Shown piece after piece: positions 51,558-61,621 of a DNA stretch of 64,000 nt. The position numbers were made by a program, and so were the translations under genes. Every line of letters starts with the position of its first letter. Within the stretch, counting starts at the first letter, position 1. The stretch covers positions 1-64,000 of the forward strand of contig ONEW01000001.1 of NCBI GenBank assembly GCA_900316935.1, given 5' to 3'. The notes beneath the pieces were generated by a model. It did no database searches. It was not told where the DNA came from and was given only the letters and a program-made list of their open reading frames with translations. This stretch comes from an uncultured Selenomonadales bacterium (GTDB lineage: Bacteria; Bacillota; Negativicutes; Acidaminococcales; Acidaminococcaceae).

Positions 51558-52055
51558 TTATTTCTTTACGCTCTGCAGGGAGCGGGCCACTTCGTCCGTG
51601 ATATCGGCACCGCCGTAAATGACGGAACTCTTGTCGACGACGACCTTCAGGCCTTTCTTTTCAGCCACTTTGCTGATGGCGTCGTTGATCTGCTTCAGCA
51701 GGGGTTCCATCAGCTCGTTCTGCTTGTTGCCCAGGCGCTGCTGCAGTTGCTGGTAGTAGCGGTCCTTTTCCTCGTTGTTCATGTCCTTGCTCTTCTCGTT
51801 GAACTCGTCACGGGTAGCCTGCACTTCCTTCTGCATGGCCGCACGCACTTCGTCCAGCTTCGGGGACTGGGATACGAGTACCTGGTAATTGACGACGCCG
51901 ATGGCGGAGTCACTGCCCGCCGCACTGGCCACGCCGCCCAGGTTGCTGAAACCACCGGCGGTCAGCGCGATGGTGAAGCAGCCGATGACGAAGATGGCGG
52001 CAATGATCAGCGAAATCGTCTTCACGTTCTTGGGGTTACGCAATTTTTCCATCAT
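51558..52055 (-). CDS. OmpH/Skp-like chaperone with membrane anchor (first gene)
   Basis: A 165-residue protein of the OmpH family. A hydrophobic helix (about residues 14-36) lacks an obvious signal peptidase site, so it may be an uncleaved anchor. IGVVNYQVLVSQSP opens the Skp domain, a Gln/Lys/Glu coiled coil follows, and KGLKVVVDKSSVIYGGADIT closes it. It holds outer-membrane proteins for BamA. It is first behind a strong promoter and followed by a terminator-like hairpin, so it should be the most expressed of the three. Confidence 0.85.
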   Translation of the reverse strand: MMEKLRNPKNVKTISLIIAAIFVIGCFTIALTAGGFSNLGGVASAAGSDSAIGVVNYQVLVSQSPKLDEVRAAMQKEVQATRDEFNEKSKDMNNEEKDRYYQQLQQRLGNKQNELMEPLLKQINDAISKVAEKKGLKVVVDKSSVIYGGADITDEVARSLQSVKK

Positions 52056-52243: not shown

Positions 52244-53542
52244 TTACAGGTTGCCGATGATGCGGAAATAGGATTTGTCCGTCGAGTAGACGTACTCGCC
52301 GCTCAGGAATTCATGGATACGGTAACGCACTGCGTATTCGTTGTCGCCCGTGTCGCCGAAATGTTCCACGCGGAACCGCCATTTCGGGGTAAAGTCGTAT
52401 TCGGCCCGGTAGAGGCTCTTGTCATCGGGGAAACGGCGCATATAGGAGAAGGTCGCCTTGTTCCAGTGATAGGCAAAGCCTGGATCGAACATCCAGTCCA
52501 CATTATCCAGATCCACGCTTACTTCGCCGAAAATCTCGTCCCGGGGAGCGATGTACTTGCCCAGATGGGCCTTGCCGGAAAGGTTGTGGTCATCGCGGCC
52601 TATATCGCCGTACCCTTCAAACCAGATACGGTATTCCTTCGATTCCAGGGTGATGTCCACTTTCGCGTCGCCGCCCGGCGACGGAGCAATGGTGATTCCC
52701 GGCGTCAGATGGTGGCGCTGGACCTGCTTTTCCGCCTTCAGTTCCTCCAGGAACAGGTCCTCCAGCTCCGTCCGGTTCTTCTGCACGTACGCCAGGGGCA
52801 GTCCCCGCAGGGCCTTCGCCTGGTCGGCGTACTTGTATTTGACTTTCATGAGCAGGATGTTCGGGATGGATTTGGAGACCATGCTGTATTCTACATCGCG
52901 CACCAAGGCGCCGACGGGATAGATGATGACCTGCACCACGGCATTCCCACCGCGGGTGGTCAGGTCCACGGCCGCCTTGAAGTCCGGCAGGGCCGCTTCC
53001 ACCTGGTTCCGCACCTGGGCACGCACCACACTGCCGGCCCAGTCCGCAGCGTCGAGGGACGCGCCCTCCAGCGTCTGACGGAGCTGTTTTTCCAATCCGG
53101 GCAGCTTGTGCTTCAGCAGGGCCGAAGTCTTGGCGTCTATGCCGGAGAACTGCAGGTCCACATCGGTCTTCTGTACGACCTGGCCCCAGGGGGAAACGGA
53201 AAACCCGGCGATGGCCGTCGTGCCATCCGGCGTCTCGGCAATGCGCAGTTGCACCTCGTTCGTCTGGTAGCCCGTGATGACGCGGTCCGAAATTTCCGCC
53301 AGCAAATGCTCGTACCCCTCGCGGTCTGCCGCGATGGCCGCGGCGTCCCGGCCGTTGAAGAGCTGTTCCGCCACGACCTGCATGCTGCCGGCCATTTTAT
53401 TCAGCAGGGCCCGGCTCGTCGTACCACGGCTGTCCGTAATGTCCACCCGTACCTGCGTGACCGGCGCCGCCAGCCCCGTGCCGCCGAAGAAGGCCGCCTG
53501 GCAGAGGGCCAGGCAGAGCAGGCTTAATATCGTCTGTTTCAT
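52244..53542 (-). CDS. Uncharacterised envelope protein between bamA and skp
   Basis: I do not recognise a named family. It is a 432-residue exported protein with a signal peptide (about 1-25, ending GLAAPV). Residues 30-270 mix helices and strands and contain two hydrophobic patches (VVQVIIYPVGALVRD). The last 160 residues are rich in alternating aromatic and charged residues with turns (KEYRIWFEGYGDIG, MFDPGFAYHWNKATFSYMRR), which suggests antiparallel beta-strands, possibly a small barrel. It lies between bamA and the Skp genes, so a role in outer-membrane assembly is a fair guess. No ribosome binding site is obvious. Confidence 0.7.
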   Translation of the reverse strand: MKQTILSLLCLALCQAAFFGGTGLAAPVTQVRVDITDSRGTTSRALLNKMAGSMQVVAEQLFNGRDAAAIAADREGYEHLLAEISDRVITGYQTNEVQLRIAETPDGTTAIAGFSVSPWGQVVQKTDVDLQFSGIDAKTSALLKHKLPGLEKQLRQTLEGASLDAADWAGSVVRAQVRNQVEAALPDFKAAVDLTTRGGNAVVQVIIYPVGALVRDVEYSMVSKSIPNILLMKVKYKYADQAKALRGLPLAYVQKNRTELEDLFLEELKAEKQVQRHHLTPGITIAPSPGGDAKVDITLESKEYRIWFEGYGDIGRDDHNLSGKAHLGKYIAPRDEIFGEVSVDLDNVDWMFDPGFAYHWNKATFSYMRRFPDDKSLYRAEYDFTPKWRFRVEHFGDTGDNEYAVRYRIHEFLSGEYVYSTDKSYFRIIGNL

Positions 53543-53556
53543 ATAGTTTGAAAGAA

Positions 53557-53585
53557 ACCGGAAGGAGACAGAGCCGCCTTCCGGT
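53557..53585 (-). terminator. Terminator-like hairpin between bamA and the unknown gene
   Basis: A perfect 9-bp stem (53557-53565 with 53577-53585) then TTTCTTTC on the minus strand. Partial termination after bamA is likely. Confidence 0.6.
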
Positions 53586-53617: not shown

Positions 53618-55639
53618 TCAGAACTGGCCGCCGAAGCTGAAGTGGAACTTCTTCTTGTCTTCGCCGATACCATAGTCCAGCTTGATCGGGCCCAACGGCG
53701 AGTTGATGCGGATGCCGAGGCCGTAGCCTACCTTGATGAGGCCCATGTCGAACATGGTCTCGTCCCGTTTATCCCAGGCATAGCCGGAATCCACAAACAG
53801 GACGCCCTGCACCTTCTTGACGATGGGCATGCGGTATTCCATGGTGCCGCGCAGGAAGCTGTTGCCGCGGAACTGGTCGTCCTCGTAACCGCGGAGCGTG
53901 TCGGCACCGCCCATGGAGAAGCGTTGCGACAGCGGCATGTCGCCCCAGGCGTAGCCGGCGCCGAAATCGAAGGCCAGCACGTTCTGGCCGCCAGCCTTCA
54001 AGTAGTAGCGGTAATCGACGCTGACCTTTTCGAAGCGGAAGTCGCCGCCAAGGCCGGCCCATTCGAACGTGTAGGAATTGCGTTTGCCCGCATGGGGATC
54101 ATACACGTTGTCGCGGGAATCGTAGATGCGGGAGTAGGCTACGCTGCGCGTATCGCCGAAGTTTTCCTTGCGGCGTTCCGCAGCGGTCTTCCCGTAAGTT
54201 TCTCCCGTGTAACCCTCTTCGTAGTACTGCGTGCTGTAGCCGTCTTCCGGCCCTTCGTATTTATCGGAGCGGTTCTTCAGGGTCAGGACATTGCTGACAT
54301 ATTCGCCGGCGCGGCGGCTGAAGGACAGTTCCTGGCCGACACGTTTCTTGTCGTACCGCGCGATTTCATCGGCGTTACGGTTGTAGTCGGCGTATTCGTT
54401 CGTAAAGTTGTAGAGGGACAGCGTGGCCGCCGTCTCCTTTTTATCAATCCAGGGTTTCGTATAAGTGAAATCGTAGTTGGCATTGTCTTCGCCGCCGAAT
54501 TCCCAACGGATCATGACGCTGTCGCCGGTCCCCCGGAAGTTCTTGTCGCCCAGGCTGACCATACCCACGAAACCGTCGGCATCACTATAGCCGGCGCCGA
54601 TGCCGAAGGTACCGGTGCTCTGCTCGACGACGCTGATCTCCATTTCCACGGAGTTCGGTTCGCTGCCCGGGTTCAGGCGTACATTGACGTCCTCGAAGAA
54701 GCCCAGGTTGTAGATGCGCTGCATGGAACGCCGTGCCAGGTTCGTGTTGAACGGTTCGCCCTTCTTGAGGCGGATTTCCCGCAAAACGACGTAATCCTTG
54801 GTCTTGACGTTGCCTTTGACCTTGAAGTCCTCGACCTTGCCTTCGTTGACCAGTACGTACAACGTGCCGTCCGGCAGGACGCGCAGGTCCGTCACACGGG
54901 CCAGGATATAGCCCTCTTTCTTGTATTCCGCTTCCACTTGCTGGATGCGTTCCGTCACGGCGCGGATATTGATCATCTCACCAGGCTGGAGGCCGATCAT
55001 CTTTTCAATGTCCCCGGTCTTGATCTTGGTGTTTCCTTCAATCCGGTAACCCGTAAACTGCGGATTCTCCATAACGTGGTATGTCACTTCGACCCCTTCG
55101 GGCACAGCCTTGAAGGTAGGGCGCAGGTCGTAGAACCAGCCCAGGGAATAGATGGACTGCAGATCCCGCGCCAGGGCGTCCTCGGTCAGTTTGATGCCCG
55201 GTTTGCTGATGACGGCGGTCTGGATGTCTTCCGTCTTGATTTCCTTGTTGCCCTCGATGACGATCTTCGTAATCGGTTTGTCGAGGAACGGTTTCAGTTC
55301 CGGGTCTACCTCTTCCACCGGGGCGGTCTCCGTAAGGGCTTCCTCTTCCCGTGCGCCCTCCGCAGGCGCCGCGCTCTGCTGGGGCGGCACCGGTGCGGAT
55401 GCATTGCCGCGGGGGCCCTGGGCCACGGCTTCCGCCGCCCGTTTGGCCGCCGCTTCCTGCTCCGCCTCCAGGGACGGGGACTCCGTCACGGCACCGTCAT
55501 TTTCTGTCGTGTTGACCGGTTTGCCTTTCAAGTCAACCGGCTGCGATGTACTGGCCGTCGTTTCGGCAAATACAGGCGAGGCCGTCAGCAGTGCGGTGGC
55601 AAGCACCATCGCAAGACGTGCCTTAAACGTATGATTCAT
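53618..55639 (-). CDS. bamA: Outer membrane assembly factor BamA (three POTRA domains)
   Basis: A 673-residue Omp85 protein inserting beta-barrels into the outer membrane. The signal peptide is at 1-25, then comes a low-complexity Ala/Pro/Glu/Thr linker (about 27-118). Three POTRA domains follow (about 122-192, 195-266, 268-339; ITKIVIEGN, FTGYRIEGN and VEDFKVKGN open them), then a 16-strand-type barrel from about 343. The LRGYEDDQFRGN loop has the conserved RGY, and the C-terminus ends in Phe (FSFGGQF). Proteobacterial BamA has five POTRA domains and about 800 residues. GGAGGG precedes the ATG. Confidence 0.95.
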   Translation of the reverse strand: MNHTFKARLAMVLATALLTASPVFAETTASTSQPVDLKGKPVNTTENDGAVTESPSLEAEQEAAAKRAAEAVAQGPRGNASAPVPPQQSAAPAEGAREEEALTETAPVEEVDPELKPFLDKPITKIVIEGNKEIKTEDIQTAVISKPGIKLTEDALARDLQSIYSLGWFYDLRPTFKAVPEGVEVTYHVMENPQFTGYRIEGNTKIKTGDIEKMIGLQPGEMINIRAVTERIQQVEAEYKKEGYILARVTDLRVLPDGTLYVLVNEGKVEDFKVKGNVKTKDYVVLREIRLKKGEPFNTNLARRSMQRIYNLGFFEDVNVRLNPGSEPNSVEMEISVVEQSTGTFGIGAGYSDADGFVGMVSLGDKNFRGTGDSVMIRWEFGGEDNANYDFTYTKPWIDKKETAATLSLYNFTNEYADYNRNADEIARYDKKRVGQELSFSRRAGEYVSNVLTLKNRSDKYEGPEDGYSTQYYEEGYTGETYGKTAAERRKENFGDTRSVAYSRIYDSRDNVYDPHAGKRNSYTFEWAGLGGDFRFEKVSVDYRYYLKAGGQNVLAFDFGAGYAWGDMPLSQRFSMGGADTLRGYEDDQFRGNSFLRGTMEYRMPIVKKVQGVLFVDSGYAWDKRDETMFDMGLIKVGYGLGIRINSPLGPIKLDYGIGEDKKKFHFSFGGQF

Positions 55640-55806: not shown

Positions 55807-56301
55807 TCAGCGGCCGTTTCCCAATTCCTGTTTTCCGGACCGGATCAGCTGCCGCATTTCCGAAGAAGAAAGCCGCACGCGGTTCCCGCTCTGGGGAACA
55901 GGGTCCGGTTTGACCGTCCTGGCACCTTCCGCAGGCTGTCCGGCCTGCCTGGGTACGGCCTGTTCCGGTGCCTTCTGCTCCGCTGCGGGCGCCGCCGTCG
56001 TCACGGCCTGTGTCGCCTGCACGCCTGCCACCCCGTTCTGCCTGATGCTGCGGGCCGAGGACCACCACCAGCCGATACCGCCGGCGGCTACGATCACAAG
56101 GGCGCTCAGGGCCGCAAAGCTGCGCCGCGTCCAGGCAACCCATGCCGGACGTTTCTGCCGCAGATTCTGCAGTTCCGCCTCCGCCAGCATCAGGTCCAGT
56201 TCCCCGCGGACCTCCTGGTTGTCATGGAAGCTCTTTTCCGCATTGTCCAGGCTGGCTTTGGCGTTCCGTATGCGGCTGTATACCGCATTGCGCTGCGTCA
56301 T
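55807..56301 (-). CDS. Single-pass membrane protein of unknown function
   Basis: I do not recognise this 164-residue protein. Residues 1-55 are a charged helical region. One membrane helix lies at about 62-82 (ALSALVIVAAGGIGWWW). Residues 85-140 are Ala/Pro/Gln-rich and disordered, and the end is basic with LSSSEMRQLIRSGKQELG. The shape suits a cytoplasm-to-periplasm adaptor. GAGGTG precedes the ATG at 56301. It sits upstream of bamA, behind its own -10 box. Confidence 0.65.
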   Translation of the reverse strand: MTQRNAVYSRIRNAKASLDNAEKSFHDNQEVRGELDLMLAEAELQNLRQKRPAWVAWTRRSFAALSALVIVAAGGIGWWWSSARSIRQNGVAGVQATQAVTTAAPAAEQKAPEQAVPRQAGQPAEGARTVKPDPVPQSGNRVRLSSSEMRQLIRSGKQELGNGR

Positions 56302-56438
56302 GACCGTTCACCTCGCTTCCCTCATTCTTCCTCCGCCGTTCCGCCTGACGGCGGTTCCGGCCTCTGTTCGGAAAGGGCATACTTCCCCCTTGCCCTGTTT
56401 TAAATTATAATCGGAATTCCTTTTTGCTTTTCACACGG

Positions 56439-56454
56439 TATAGGACATCCTATA
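56439..56454 (-). promoter_or_regulatory. Palindromic operator candidate TATAGGACATCCTATA
   Basis: Two perfect 7-bp arms separated by CA. It lies about 30 bases upstream of a TATAAT, where an activator or repressor could act. Confidence 0.5.
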
Positions 56455-56540
56455 TCTTGAAAAATCAGGATTAGCTTCGTTTTTCGTTCTTTTTTCTATA
56501 CAAAAGCACTGATTATCTTTCATTTTCGCAATAACACAAT

Positions 56541-56573
56541 AAAAAGGAAGAAGGAACAGGGCCGGAACCCTGT
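56541..56573 (-). terminator. Terminator after the sigma-factor gene
   Basis: A 6-bp stem ACAGGG/CCCTGT (56556-56573), then TCCTTCTTCCTTTTT on the minus strand. Confidence 0.6.
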
Positions 56574-56608
56574 GCCTTGCCTATGGTTTATCCTGACTCA
56601 TTTGCGAC

Positions 56609-57241
56609 TTATTTGCGGAAATCGGACATGAAGCGTGACAACATGCCGCGGACCCGCTGGACGCCCTTCTTTTCCAGGCGGTATATGTGGTTCGTGCTCA
56701 CGTGGATGGAGTCGGCCAGATCCGCCGGCGTCCGGTTGTCAAGGAACAGGCCCCGCAGGACCTCCCGTTCCTTGCCGGGCAGGCGCTCCACAGCGCCGCA
56801 CACCCGGGCCGACACGGCATGCCGCTCGGCAATCTCTTCCGGTACGGGCTGCTGGCTGGGCAGGAAATCCGCCAGCGTGCTGCCGTTTTCGCTCTCCCAG
56901 TCCAGGGAAAGGAATTCGTTTGCATGTTCCCGGGTGAGGAAATCGCACATGCGCCCGCGGATGCGGTGCATGGCGAAGAGGCTGAACGCCACGCCGCGCG
57001 TGTGGTCGTAGCTTTCAGCGGCCTCCAGGAGACCCACCATGCCTTCCTGAATCAGCTCCATGGTCACTTCTTCCTGCAAACGGAACGAGACGGCGATTTT
57101 GAAGACCAGCGGCTGGTACGAGGCCATCAGTTTCTGGTGCGCCTCCCCGTCGCCCGCCTTTTCCGCCTCCCAGAGCGCGCGTTCTTCCTCGGGAGCGAGA
57201 AGCTTTATTTTTTTCAGTTCGGCCAGATAGGCTGGCAACAT
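56609..57241 (-). CDS. Sigma-70 family RNA polymerase sigma factor
   Basis: A 210-residue sigma factor. Region 2 is clear (LIQEGMVGLLEAAESYDHTRG, then FSLFAMHRIRGRMCDFL), close to the FliA/SigF/SigB branch. Region 4 near the C-terminus (LPGKEREVLRGLFLDN, then ADLADSIHVSTNHIYRLEKKG) would bind the -35 box. Region 3 is reduced or absent. No anti-sigma gene is adjacent. It lies 19 bases after tamB on the same strand and GGAGGG precedes its ATG, so it is probably co-transcribed with tamB; it may drive envelope genes. Confidence 0.9.
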   Translation of the reverse strand: MLPAYLAELKKIKLLAPEEERALWEAEKAGDGEAHQKLMASYQPLVFKIAVSFRLQEEVTMELIQEGMVGLLEAAESYDHTRGVAFSLFAMHRIRGRMCDFLTREHANEFLSLDWESENGSTLADFLPSQQPVPEEIAERHAVSARVCGAVERLPGKEREVLRGLFLDNRTPADLADSIHVSTNHIYRLEKKGVQRVRGMLSRFMSDFRK

Positions 57242-57260: not shown

Positions 57261-60200
57261 TCAGAAGCCTACGCGGTATTCCACGCTGTACCGTTTGTTC
57301 GAATCCTTATCTTTGGAGATGGTCATGAACAGCCGGTCCGTCAATTCGTACTGCGTGTAGACGTTGTTATCGTCGCCGTTGAAGCTGCTCGTGTACCCGA
57401 TGCTCCACCGGTCCGTCAGATTCTTTGCCACGAGCCAATTGTACTGCTTTTGCTCGTCCCGCGTCAAATCCTTTTCGTTGCTTGTCGTAAAATCGACGCC
57501 ATTTTCCACGCGTCCCAGGTAGACGCGGAACTGGTCGATATGCAGGGTGCGTCTGATGATCTGCTCCACGTCGCCCAGCATGCCGGTCTCCAGGCCGGCC
57601 ACAAGCAGGTTCTGCATATCCTGGCCGGTGACGGAGTTGCCGCCGACGGAGAAACGCTGCAGCATCAGCATGCGGGACAGGGTACTCTGCGGCAGGGACG
57701 GCTCGGACGTCAGTTTCATGTCCAGTTTGCCCTGGGACAGCGGACCCGACACATTGCACAGGACGCGGTAGCGGCCGAACTGGGTATGGGCCGTCAGATT
57801 GACGTTTGGCAGGAACGTGCCCGGCTCCATCCAGAGCAGGCGGCCTTCGTCAACCTTGAAGTCCGTGCGCAGGTACGTGATGTCGCCCTTGACGGTCTCG
57901 ATGCTGCCGTCCACGACGGGGAACAGGGTGCTGCCCCGGGCGTGGACACTGCCTTGCAGCCACATGTCATACAGATACTTGTTATACAGGTGCACTTTCG
58001 ACCCCAGGGTCACTTTCACATCGAGGCCGATGTTGCTGGTGCTGTCCCCCAGTTCGGGGATGGTCGGCATGTTGACCAGCACATCGTCCAGGCGCATGTC
58101 CATGGTGATCTTCGGCCGGTATCCCTCCCGCGGGAACCCCTGTGTATCCCCCATGCGGAGGAAATAATGCTCCGGCCGCACAATCAGGTTGCCGTCCAGG
58201 CGTGCCTGCACGAACTGGGAAGTAATCTGGGCATTCTGCAGGGCCATCTGGAAGTTGTAGCTTTCCTCGCCGGACGCACTCAGGTCGTACGTGCCGCCGC
58301 CGGCCACGAAGCCTTGCCCCAGGCGGGCCGACAGGTTGCGCACATGGACCACGCTGCCGTCGAAGGCCACATCCATGTTGATGTTGTCGATGATGTTGTT
58401 CAGGTAACGGATTTTGAGGGAGCCGTTTTCCACGCTCAGGTTGCCGAAGAGCTGTGGATTATCCAGCGTGCCCGTTATGTTCAGCTTGCCCTTCGTGCCG
58501 CCCGTGCCCCACTCCACGAAGTTGAAGGCGCCCAGGGCGGCCAGGCTGGCCTCATTGAAGTCCACATTGATGTCCATCTGGGCATTGGGGTCCTTGCGCT
58601 GCCCTTTGGCCCGGAACAGGTCCAACGGGATGTCGCCGCTGGCCGTCAGTTTGTAGATGTCCCGTTCCGCCAGCATCTGGTCCAGGTGGAGGAAGCCGTC
58701 CTTCATGGTCAGCATCGCCAGGGCCCGGTCGAACCCGGCGCCCGCCACGGTCCCCTGGGTGATTTCCAGGGACCCGTTGCCCGTCGGATTGTCGAAGGTG
58801 CCGCCCAGCTGCACCGTGGCGTTCATCAGTCCCGAGAACTGCACCGGCCGCGACATGAGGGCCGTAATGATGCCCGGGTTGGCGTCCACGGCGCCGGCCT
58901 CAATCTGCAGGGTGCGTTTCGGAAAGTCCACTTTGCCCTGGACGGCCAGGATGCCGTCTTCGGGGAATATGCGGTCTTCCTGCAGTTTCAGGGTATGGAT
59001 GTCCAACACGCCATGCAGGAAGGAAGCCCGCAGGGTCATGCTGTCGTAATGCTGCGTGTTGACGGAAATGTCGTGGACGGCGGCATCAATCAGGGTCGGC
59101 GTGTCCGGACCGTTGAACGTGATCATGCCCGTGGCAATGCCCTGGACAGGCAGGTCGGCCTTCGCCATGGCGAGCAGTTTATGCACATCGGCATAACTCA
59201 TGCCGATGCGGCCCCGCAGGTCGCGGTGCGGAATGTCGAGGGTGAGGTCCGCCCGGTACTCGGCATACAGGTTATCCGCACCGGGCTGCTGAAAGCCCGC
59301 CTTCAATTCGTTCAGGTCCTTGCCGTTGCTGCGCAGCGTCCCGGAAAGGGCCTTCACTTCCACCCCGTTGATGGTGAAGGAATCGCTCTTCACGTTGCCT
59401 TCGAACAGAGGCGACTGCAGCGTCCCGCCCAGATGCCCGGACACCGACACGAAGCCCGTCAGGGCCGCCCTTTCGTCCTGGATCGGCAGCTGGGCCAGGT
59501 CGACATCCGTCGCCGCTGCTTCAAAATCAAGGTTCTGTGCCTTGTCCATGGTGCCGTGGATTTTCACGGTCGTGGACATGGAGCGCACCAGGCCGTCTTC
59601 CAGGCTGAGGGCGCCGTCCCGGCAGGCATAGCGTCCGGACACCTTTTCCACCAGGTACCCCATGACACTGCCGTCCGTCATATCGATTTCGCCCGTCACA
59701 TCGGGATGGGCCAGGGTGCCGTGGATGGACAGGCTGTTCGTCAGGTTGCCCGTCGCCTGCACCTTCCGGTTCAGGCCTGACACCTGCAGCAGCGGTTCCA
59801 CCCGGACGTTCTCCGTGGAAACGGTCAGGTCCAGGGCCGGATCGCTTTGGTTGAAATCCGCCGTGCCGTCGATGACATGACGGCCCTGGTCCATCTGCAC
59901 CACATAGTGCTGCAAGGTGACGCGGCAGGCGTCGATATCCGCCCGGCCGGCGGCATCCTTCACGTGGATGCCCCGCACGCGCAGGTCCGCAATGCGGCTG
60001 CCGGTCTGCGCCTTGAAGCTGGTCCCTTTTCCCTGCACGGCATAATGGGCCGACAGATATCCGCTGCCATCTTCCCCCGCCACGGCCAGGAAAGGCGCCA
60101 CCGGAATATCCGCCAGTCTGCCCTGCAAGGCATAGGTGCCATCAAAGCCGACCTTGCCTGTCGCCGTCAGGGCGCCCGGTCCCATGAAAGCCGACAAGGT

Positions 60201-61523
60201 GTGGATGTCGGCCCCCTGTTCCGTCACGTCTGTGTCGAAATCGGCCACTTTCAGCGTCATGCCGCGCCAGGTCAGATTAAAGGTATGCGCCGCCAGGGAG
60301 GCCTTCAGTCTGGCGTTCTCCCGGTCAAACGTCCCCTGCAGGGCCAATTCGGCATGGATGCCGATGGTTTCGGCCTGCCGGGCCGGCACGGTCACATGGT
60401 CTATCTGTGTCTGGGCCGTCAGGGCCCCCGACTTCAAATCGTAATCGCCGCTGGCCTTCACGCTGCCGCCGCCATATTCAAACGAGGCACTGCGCAGGAA
60501 GGCCACGCTGTCCACCAAGGCGCCGTCCACGCGCACGTTGCGTACCGTCAGGTCCCCGTAGGACAGGGACGGCGCATCGGCATGCAGGGTGCCGCGCAAA
60601 TGATCCAAGTCGCTGTAATCCACATCGCCGTCGAGGTGGATCACCTGCCCGTTGAGGGTGAGGGTCAGGTCCTTCGTACTCATGGCGTGGTCCGTGCCCG
60701 TCACCGTGCCGCCGACACTGAACTTCCAGTCCCGGCCGCCGTACGCACGGACACCACGCACACCGCGCAGCGTGACCGTACCCTGCAGGAGTGTGTCCTG
60801 TCCGTCATTATGCCAGAATCCATTGAGTCCGACCACTTCGCCGCCGGCTTCCCGGACCTGGCCGTAATGCGCCGCCAGGGCGGCAAAAGGCTCCAGACTG
60901 ACGCGGTCCGTCACGAAATGGACTTTGCCCACCCCTTTCGTCGTCAGGCCGCCCGTCAGGTGCACCGGGGCCATGGCAGGGTTCGTGACGGTGAAATCCA
61001 GGTCGAAGACCGGGTTATGGCTGCCGTCCACCTTGCCGTTCACGCCGAATTCCCAACGGCCCTGCGGCAGGGACACGACGACCGTACCGTCCTGGACGGA
61101 CGCAGTGCCATAGAACGGCGTCGTGTCCGACTGGGAAGGCTTCATCAAGTTCCGGATATTCCATTTTTCCTGTGTATCCTGCGTCACATAAAGGACCGGC
61201 TCCCGGATGGCGACGGTTGAAATGGCCTTGTCCGTGCTGCGGAGGGCCATAAAGGGATTGACGGTCACGCGCGTTTCCGGCAGTTTTGCCACCGGCCGGC
61301 GCTGTACATCGTCCACCTCCACGTCGCGGAAGATGACCGTGAAGCCGCCGTTCCATTCGATTTTACCGATTGTAACGCTTCCGTTTATGTAATTGGCTGC
61401 CAGATTCCGGGCATAAGGCAGGGCCTGCGTCAGCACCCGCGGCATGACGGCCTGCGTCAGCACCGCGTAGATGGCACACAGCACCGCTATGATTCCCAAA
61501 ATCCATTGATGGGTGCGAGTCAT
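57261..61523 (-). CDS. tamB: Translocation and assembly module protein TamB
   Basis: A 1420-residue protein with an N-terminal inner-membrane helix (about 7-25) and over 1000 residues of repetitive beta-strands that form a long hydrophobic groove across the periplasm. The TamB (DUF490) domain fills the last 350 residues, ending YSVEYRVGF. It is implicated in phospholipid transport and outer-membrane protein assembly. The ATG at 61523 is preferred because the upstream in-frame extension has no signal-like features; GAGGAAAG lies a little far upstream (about 13 bases). It is neighboured by tolC and mlaD, as known in Veillonella. Confidence 0.93.
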   Translation of the reverse strand: MTRTHQWILGIIAVLCAIYAVLTQAVMPRVLTQALPYARNLAANYINGSVTIGKIEWNGGFTVIFRDVEVDDVQRRPVAKLPETRVTVNPFMALRSTDKAISTVAIREPVLYVTQDTQEKWNIRNLMKPSQSDTTPFYGTASVQDGTVVVSLPQGRWEFGVNGKVDGSHNPVFDLDFTVTNPAMAPVHLTGGLTTKGVGKVHFVTDRVSLEPFAALAAHYGQVREAGGEVVGLNGFWHNDGQDTLLQGTVTLRGVRGVRAYGGRDWKFSVGGTVTGTDHAMSTKDLTLTLNGQVIHLDGDVDYSDLDHLRGTLHADAPSLSYGDLTVRNVRVDGALVDSVAFLRSASFEYGGGSVKASGDYDLKSGALTAQTQIDHVTVPARQAETIGIHAELALQGTFDRENARLKASLAAHTFNLTWRGMTLKVADFDTDVTEQGADIHTLSAFMGPGALTATGKVGFDGTYALQGRLADIPVAPFLAVAGEDGSGYLSAHYAVQGKGTSFKAQTGSRIADLRVRGIHVKDAAGRADIDACRVTLQHYVVQMDQGRHVIDGTADFNQSDPALDLTVSTENVRVEPLLQVSGLNRKVQATGNLTNSLSIHGTLAHPDVTGEIDMTDGSVMGYLVEKVSGRYACRDGALSLEDGLVRSMSTTVKIHGTMDKAQNLDFEAAATDVDLAQLPIQDERAALTGFVSVSGHLGGTLQSPLFEGNVKSDSFTINGVEVKALSGTLRSNGKDLNELKAGFQQPGADNLYAEYRADLTLDIPHRDLRGRIGMSYADVHKLLAMAKADLPVQGIATGMITFNGPDTPTLIDAAVHDISVNTQHYDSMTLRASFLHGVLDIHTLKLQEDRIFPEDGILAVQGKVDFPKRTLQIEAGAVDANPGIITALMSRPVQFSGLMNATVQLGGTFDNPTGNGSLEITQGTVAGAGFDRALAMLTMKDGFLHLDQMLAERDIYKLTASGDIPLDLFRAKGQRKDPNAQMDINVDFNEASLAALGAFNFVEWGTGGTKGKLNITGTLDNPQLFGNLSVENGSLKIRYLNNIIDNINMDVAFDGSVVHVRNLSARLGQGFVAGGGTYDLSASGEESYNFQMALQNAQITSQFVQARLDGNLIVRPEHYFLRMGDTQGFPREGYRPKITMDMRLDDVLVNMPTIPELGDSTSNIGLDVKVTLGSKVHLYNKYLYDMWLQGSVHARGSTLFPVVDGSIETVKGDITYLRTDFKVDEGRLLWMEPGTFLPNVNLTAHTQFGRYRVLCNVSGPLSQGKLDMKLTSEPSLPQSTLSRMLMLQRFSVGGNSVTGQDMQNLLVAGLETGMLGDVEQIIRRTLHIDQFRVYLGRVENGVDFTTSNEKDLTRDEQKQYNWLVAKNLTDRWSIGYTSSFNGDDNNVYTQYELTDRLFMTISKDKDSNKRYSVEYRVGF

Positions 61524-61547
61524 GGGTTCCGTACACTTTCCTCGGCA

Positions 61548-61559
61548 TATTGGCCAATA
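61548..61559. promoter_or_regulatory. Palindrome TATTGGCCAATA in the tamB leader
   Basis: A perfect 12-base palindrome about 25 bases before the tamB start, downstream of two -10-like boxes. Possible repressor site. Confidence 0.35.
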
Positions 61560-61587
61560 AGATGTCCTGCAAACCAGGGAGCCGCAA

Positions 61588-61621
61588 ATTATACAGACTC
61601 CCATATTACAGTTTCATTATA
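61588..61621 (-). promoter_or_regulatory. Two -10-like boxes upstream of tamB
   Basis: Perfect TATAAT hexamers on the minus strand at 61588-61593 and 61616-61621, both with weak -35 regions. They allow tamB transcription independent of tolC, which ends at its own terminator. Confidence 0.45.

Follow-up and report, generated by a model that had tools for sequence, protein, structure and literature searches.

The window, a stretch of 64,000 nucleotides from the 1.95 Mb genome of an uncultured member of the Acidaminococcaceae, carries on its reverse strand a run of genes in the order tamB, sigX, hyp164, bamA, X and skp (Table 1). A relative, ONAN01000002.1, is 95% identical, and Succiniclasticum ruminis stands at about 65%. 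X had been picked out from the sequence alone as a 432-residue exported protein that belonged to no known family and lay between bamA and skp, and each of these points is borne out. Its reading frame of 432 codons is intact, opens with ATG and begins with a signal peptide of about 26 residues (1-26), and searches of Pfam, NCBIfam and the PDB, made both with X and with its profile A1, gave no match to any sequence family. Weak matches to Ribosomal_S28e, to a molybdate-binding family and to CARD were judged to be due to chance, and no Pfam family was common to the 100 X family members scanned. The homologues (n=100) range from 95 to 23% identity, share eight invariant columns and end in a conserved C-terminus (...GNL). 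Judged from this alignment, the X gene is under strong conservation.

Table 1. Features of the X locus, numbered from the first nucleotide of the window.
Feature	Position	Strand	Evidence
skp/OmpH chaperone gene, downstream of X	51558..52055	(-)	OmpH E 2e-19
X, exported protein of 432 aa	52244..53542	(-)	AF2 mean pLDDT 95.2; best Foldseek matches TamA/BamA; HHalign of C-terminal part against MlaD barrel
Hairpin in the bamA-X gap, ACCGGAAGG...CCTTCCGGT, then a U-rich stretch	53557..53585	(-)	-18.5 kcal/mol, z -2.9
bamA, between hyp164 and X	53618..55639	(-)	Pfam Omp85 E 1e-52, POTRA E 3e-31
hyp164, putative anti-sigma protein	55807..56301	(-)	Alignment A2, AF2; in every X locus with enough flank
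sigX-hyp164 gap, 307 bp, promoter-like region	56302..56608	(-)	GATTATA at about 56406-56412
sigX, sigma-70-family factor of 210 aa, regions 2 and 4	56609..57241	(-)	Sigma70_r2 E 1e-14, r4 E 1e-7; co-occurs with X
tamB, upstream of sigX; last ~50 residues like the X C-terminus	57261..61604	(-)	TamB E 1e-29

The observation that X lacks an obvious ribosome binding site also held, as no Shine-Dalgarno-like 4-mer is found within 20 nt of its start, and this is a trait of the family, since 85 of 119 members are likewise without a Shine-Dalgarno sequence. Across the family the gap between bamA and X is short (median 28 nt) and often negative, the two genes overlapping, and the translation of X is therefore probably coupled to that of bamA. 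In the source species the gap is 75 nt and contains a stable hairpin, with the same stem in two close relatives; together with the U-rich stretch this is a possible attenuator or processing site.

X was found directly downstream of bamA in all of the approximately 120 loci read. As to whether X always stands between bamA and skp, the order does not vary freely on the bamA side, and skp usually follows X, with some exceptions; in genus g49 (L097, L103, L108) about 3 kb are inserted between the two. The strongest association of X had been missed, and is with the sigma factor and the membrane protein encoded 5' of bamA. Both SigX and hyp164 are found at every X locus with enough flank, the exceptions being contig ends and the Dialister-like genomes (L177, L178, L098), in which tamB-sigX is split from hyp164-bamA-X, the latter three seen together in G132. 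In the Dialister-like genomes G132 and G178 tamB-SigX has moved away from the bamA locus, yet none of the genes has gone and SigX is still kept along with X. Outside the Negativicutes the order tamB-SigX-hyp164-bamA-X-skp was seen in seven of seven X loci with enough flank. At one out-of-class locus (G526, L223:11543-13188) further ORFs are inserted between sigX and hyp164.

We modelled X with AlphaFold2 using 100 homologues, and the overall confidence was high (Table 1). It can be seen from the model that the signal peptide is followed by three POTRA-like modules with the order beta-alpha-alpha-beta-beta (residues 27-118, 125-209 and 216-301) and then by ten beta strands (residues 304-431, pLDDT about 95), which agrees with the barrel-like C-terminal pattern noticed before. 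When the model was compared with the PDB using Foldseek, the first 50 matches were TamA, BamA and their relatives, with E-values down to 1.6e-12 (TamA), but the global TM-scores were only about 0.2, as flexible multi-domain chains would give. At the profile level the C-terminal part of X aligned over nearly its full length with the MlaD barrel (HHalign E 2.4e-4 to 6e-4), and BamA, TolC, LpxD, SigX, Skp and reversed profiles all scored at about 3% probability or less. A BamA paralogue is ruled out at this level (HHalign probability against BamA 1.3%). Searching a viral structure library with the C-terminal part returned generic small barrels, the best matches including small outer-membrane barrels. 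In Veillonella the MlaD barrel has been modelled as ten-stranded and is recovered with the outer membrane on fractionation (PMC10665443). From the structural and profile comparisons together we describe X, by prediction, as a protein of the outer membrane, with three POTRA-like modules in the periplasm and a small barrel, probably of ten strands, at its C-terminus. The last ~50 residues of TamB also resemble the C-terminal strands of X (HHalign E 2.6e-5), with a weaker likeness to the MlaD barrel, and this may be relevant to the reported presence of TamB in outer-membrane fractions.

The hyp164 product is a single-pass membrane protein of 164 aa. The alignment and the AlphaFold2 model place two helices (2-27 and 31-49) in its cytosolic N-terminus, followed by a membrane helix (53-94), a disordered Pro-rich linker and a conserved C-terminal helix (146-161, LSxxEMQxLVRxAGxxLRG). 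Its sequence matched no known anti-sigma family and no solved anti-sigma structure, and the hits obtained in the PDB were linker or membrane-helix noise only. By analogy of layout, we regard hyp164 as a putative anti-sigma factor of the CnrY-like type that would reach into the periplasm.

The 100-sequence profile of X was used to search 380 Negativicutes genomes, and X was present in 277 of them. Cross-tabulation of the genome-wide lists for X and SigX gave both in 270 genomes, X alone in seven, SigX alone in two and neither in 101; hyp164 was scored at the bamA locus. In genomes at least 90% complete and at most 5% contaminated, X was present in 189 of 234 and SigX in 188 of 234, and in the one X-alone genome found in this set (G150) the contig breaks off immediately upstream of bamA. 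The X-bearing genomes tested have a SigX orthologue at E 1e-43 or better, and the X-less genomes tested have unrelated sigma factors only (best E about 1e-11). X is absent from about a quarter of the Negativicutes, Veillonella-like genera included, and BamA is kept; HMM searches detected none of X, SigX and hyp164 at the bamA loci of these genomes, where bamA has tamB and skp as its neighbours as far as the flank extends. Incomplete assembly is ruled out as a cause of the absence, many X-less genomes being 98-100% complete. Beyond the class, where the comparison sample was 66 non-Negativicutes genomes with an Omp85 protein, X was found in nine genomes of the same GTDB phylum, from six family groups. 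It is absent from most other diderm Bacillota examined, which keep BamA, as well as TamB and Skp wherever the flank was read, and none of X, SigX and hyp164 was found at the X-less loci retrieved from outside the class. We conclude that X and SigX are co-inherited genome-wide, and hyp164 with them at the locus.

The presence of X was mapped onto a FastTree phylogeny of BamA from 113 loci. Ten changes of state were needed, all of them forced by starred branches; examples are G062 against G117 within one genus, and G015 inside the source genome's own family. SigX agreed with X in ten of ten independent pairs (sign test p 0.002); the locus and genome searches supplied the SigX state of each row, and L042, which a contig end truncates, was excluded. 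As FastTree was used, single nodes are less certain than the total of changes. We conclude that about ten phylogenetically independent losses took X, SigX and hyp164, while tamB, bamA and skp stayed. As bamA separates hyp164-sigX from X, this pattern cannot be put down to a single deletion, and every joint loss requires two or more. In the tree the BamA rows of the X-less lineages group with their own families, which rules out that bamA was replaced there by horizontal transfer. The module may be ancestral with losses, or some lineages outside the class may have acquired it as a whole. In one X-less genome (G187; L166 and L167) the BamA match falls into two pieces; the open frame is continuous, which indicates a divergent stretch and not a broken gene.

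These losses bear on the proposal that X is an unrecognised part of outer-membrane assembly. An exported protein of outer-membrane type, tied to bamA, fits that proposal, but because X has been lost from lineages that keep BamA it is not a universal part of assembly, and its tie to SigX and hyp164 favours a regulatory or sensing role over that of a core component.

Of the intergenic gaps in the operon, that between sigX and hyp164 is the longest (median 161 bp). The motif GAYTATA was found 5' of hyp164 in 48 of 78 loci, compared with 3.7 in shuffles, at a median of 36 nt from the start; in its strict form it is missing from the other 30, and at the source locus GATTATA lies 111 nt from the hyp164 start, an exception to the usual spacing. 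Upstream of bamA the motif was seen in one of 81 X-bearing loci, and within 150 nt of bamA in four of 32 X-less loci, in each case about 130 nt or more away. None was found in the out-of-class loci, where start codons are only roughly set. Many families have a longer conserved block around the motif, and this extended element occurs about once per genome: of ten genomes, seven had one copy, one had two and two had none, and a broad SigX regulon was not seen at this stringency. The block, TGACCAGAATCTGGCCTCTTCCCATGAYTATA (sigX-hyp164 gap of L044-L072 and similar loci), includes a near-palindrome, CCAGAATCTGG, which may be an operator for a further regulator. A conserved promoter-like element is thus present in the sigX-hyp164 gap and missing from X-less loci. 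We infer that it is used by SigX, although it might belong to another factor.

The best explanation for the joint inheritance of these genes, to which we would give an even chance, places X at the outer-membrane end of a sigma/anti-sigma module that crosses the envelope, surrounds the bamA operon and acts upon it. The outer-membrane location of X is a prediction, and it is by analogy with cell-surface signalling (PMC9249621) that we infer the binding of hyp164 to SigX and to X, the use of the promoter by SigX and the signal sensed. In such a circuit hyp164 would sit in the inner membrane with its two cytosolic helices holding SigX, its disordered linker would span the periplasm and its conserved C-terminal helix would contact X. 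X would be a barrel needing insertion by BamA and, for that reason, its assembly state could report BAM capacity, as could the binding of unfolded outer-membrane proteins to its periplasmic modules. A change in X would then alter hyp164 and free SigX, which would act at the element between sigX and hyp164 to drive the hyp164-bamA-X-skp operon. The fuller proposition is of a dedicated BAM feedback circuit in diderm Bacillota, running from a BamA-made outer-membrane protein through a trans-periplasmic anti-sigma factor to a sigma factor that mainly targets the bamA operon, and we hold it tentatively, the balance tipping somewhat against it. Set against the signalling reading are the low TM-scores of X and its want of profile similarity to BamA, the failure of hyp164 to match an anti-sigma family or solved anti-sigma structure, the position of the source GATTATA, and the want of the strict motif in 30 of 78 loci and in the out-of-class loci.

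The main alternative is that X serves BAM as an accessory factor, its POTRA-like modules docking on BamA or Skp and aiding barrel insertion in place of the missing BamB-E, with SigX and hyp164 merely controlling the operon and not reading X. The position of X directly downstream of bamA, its combination of POTRA-like modules with a small barrel, and the fact that diderm Firmicutes are without BamB-E (PMC5007114; PMC10665443) would all be in keeping with this. However, about ten lineages have lost X and keep bamA, tamB and skp, and a loss shared every time with a sigma factor and a membrane protein encoded across bamA would be unexpected for an accessory, so we consider it unlikely. Less likely again is that X is a mere output of SigX, useful only under the condition to which SigX responds and sensing nothing, such that loss of the circuit would make X useless and lead to its decay. 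The same co-loss data, and the promoter-like element 5' of the operon that holds X, would fit this, but bamA and skp would share that promoter and yet persist after the loss, and a partner in the periplasm is suggested by the invariant periplasmic residues of X and by the conserved helix at the C-terminus of hyp164. That X is a small TamA analogue, working with TamB from the outer membrane to transport lipids or proteins, is very improbable, for although TamA is its best Foldseek match and has three POTRA domains where X has three POTRA-like modules, and although X and TamB resemble each other in their C-terminal strands, X-less genomes keep TamB and X has ten C-terminal strands, not sixteen.

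How diderm Firmicutes build and monitor an outer membrane without the BamB-E and LptE lipoproteins is an open question (PMC10665443). The X module brings to this question three named genes and a probable promoter, and its roughly ten independent losses amount to a natural experiment. If the signalling reading is true, it would put an outer-membrane protein with POTRA-like modules into a signalling system, and several diderm Bacillota lineages would share a solution, reached independently, to a problem solved by RpoE/RseA in Proteobacteria. The joint retention or loss of X, SigX and hyp164 suggests an undescribed circuit that would inform the cell of how well its outer membrane is being built. 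The papers found on the bamA locus do not discuss the sigma factor and its partners, and we found no description of such a system in the literature on sigma and anti-sigma factors in Negativicutes and the outer membrane.

Among known systems, FecA-FecR-FecI has an outer-membrane barrel with a periplasmic domain that is encoded together with a sigma factor and a regulator crossing the inner membrane once (PMC9249621), and the X module is similar in that a sigma factor, a single-pass regulator and a predicted outer-membrane protein are encoded and inherited together. However, X has neither the plug of a TonB receptor nor a matched signalling domain, the folded periplasmic domain of FecR is replaced in hyp164 by a disordered linker and one helix, and the module is built around bamA and not around an uptake gene; in Pfam and NCBIfam, hyp164 did not match FecR-family regulators, nor X TonB-dependent receptors with a signalling domain. 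In the Omp85 proteins BamA and TamA, the top structural matches of X, an N-terminal run of POTRA modules is followed by C-terminal barrel strands; the order of secondary structure predicted for X fits this, at global TM-scores of about 0.2, but X has ten strands in ~128 residues, not sixteen, and neither the source protein nor the 100 members gave a Pfam match to Omp85 or POTRA, or to BamB, BamC, BamD or BamE. The likeness to Veillonella MlaD lies in the ten strands and the near-full-length profile alignment, for which reversed-profile controls stayed near background; MlaD differs in having an MCE domain and an inner-membrane anchor where X has POTRA-like modules and a signal peptide. CnrX is a periplasmic metal sensor, whereas X is predicted to be of outer-membrane type. 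In CnrY two cytosolic helices wrap the sigma factor (PMC7406223), and hyp164 resembles this and other class II anti-sigma factors in layout only, with two N-terminal helices and then one membrane helix; no sequence match to them was found, and it differs in its long linker and conserved C-terminal helix. The genes of the X module show no RseA- or RseB-like match, and the proposed sensor is an outer-membrane protein. RpoE-RseA matches outer-membrane assembly capacity to need, and the proposed X circuit would serve the same purpose.
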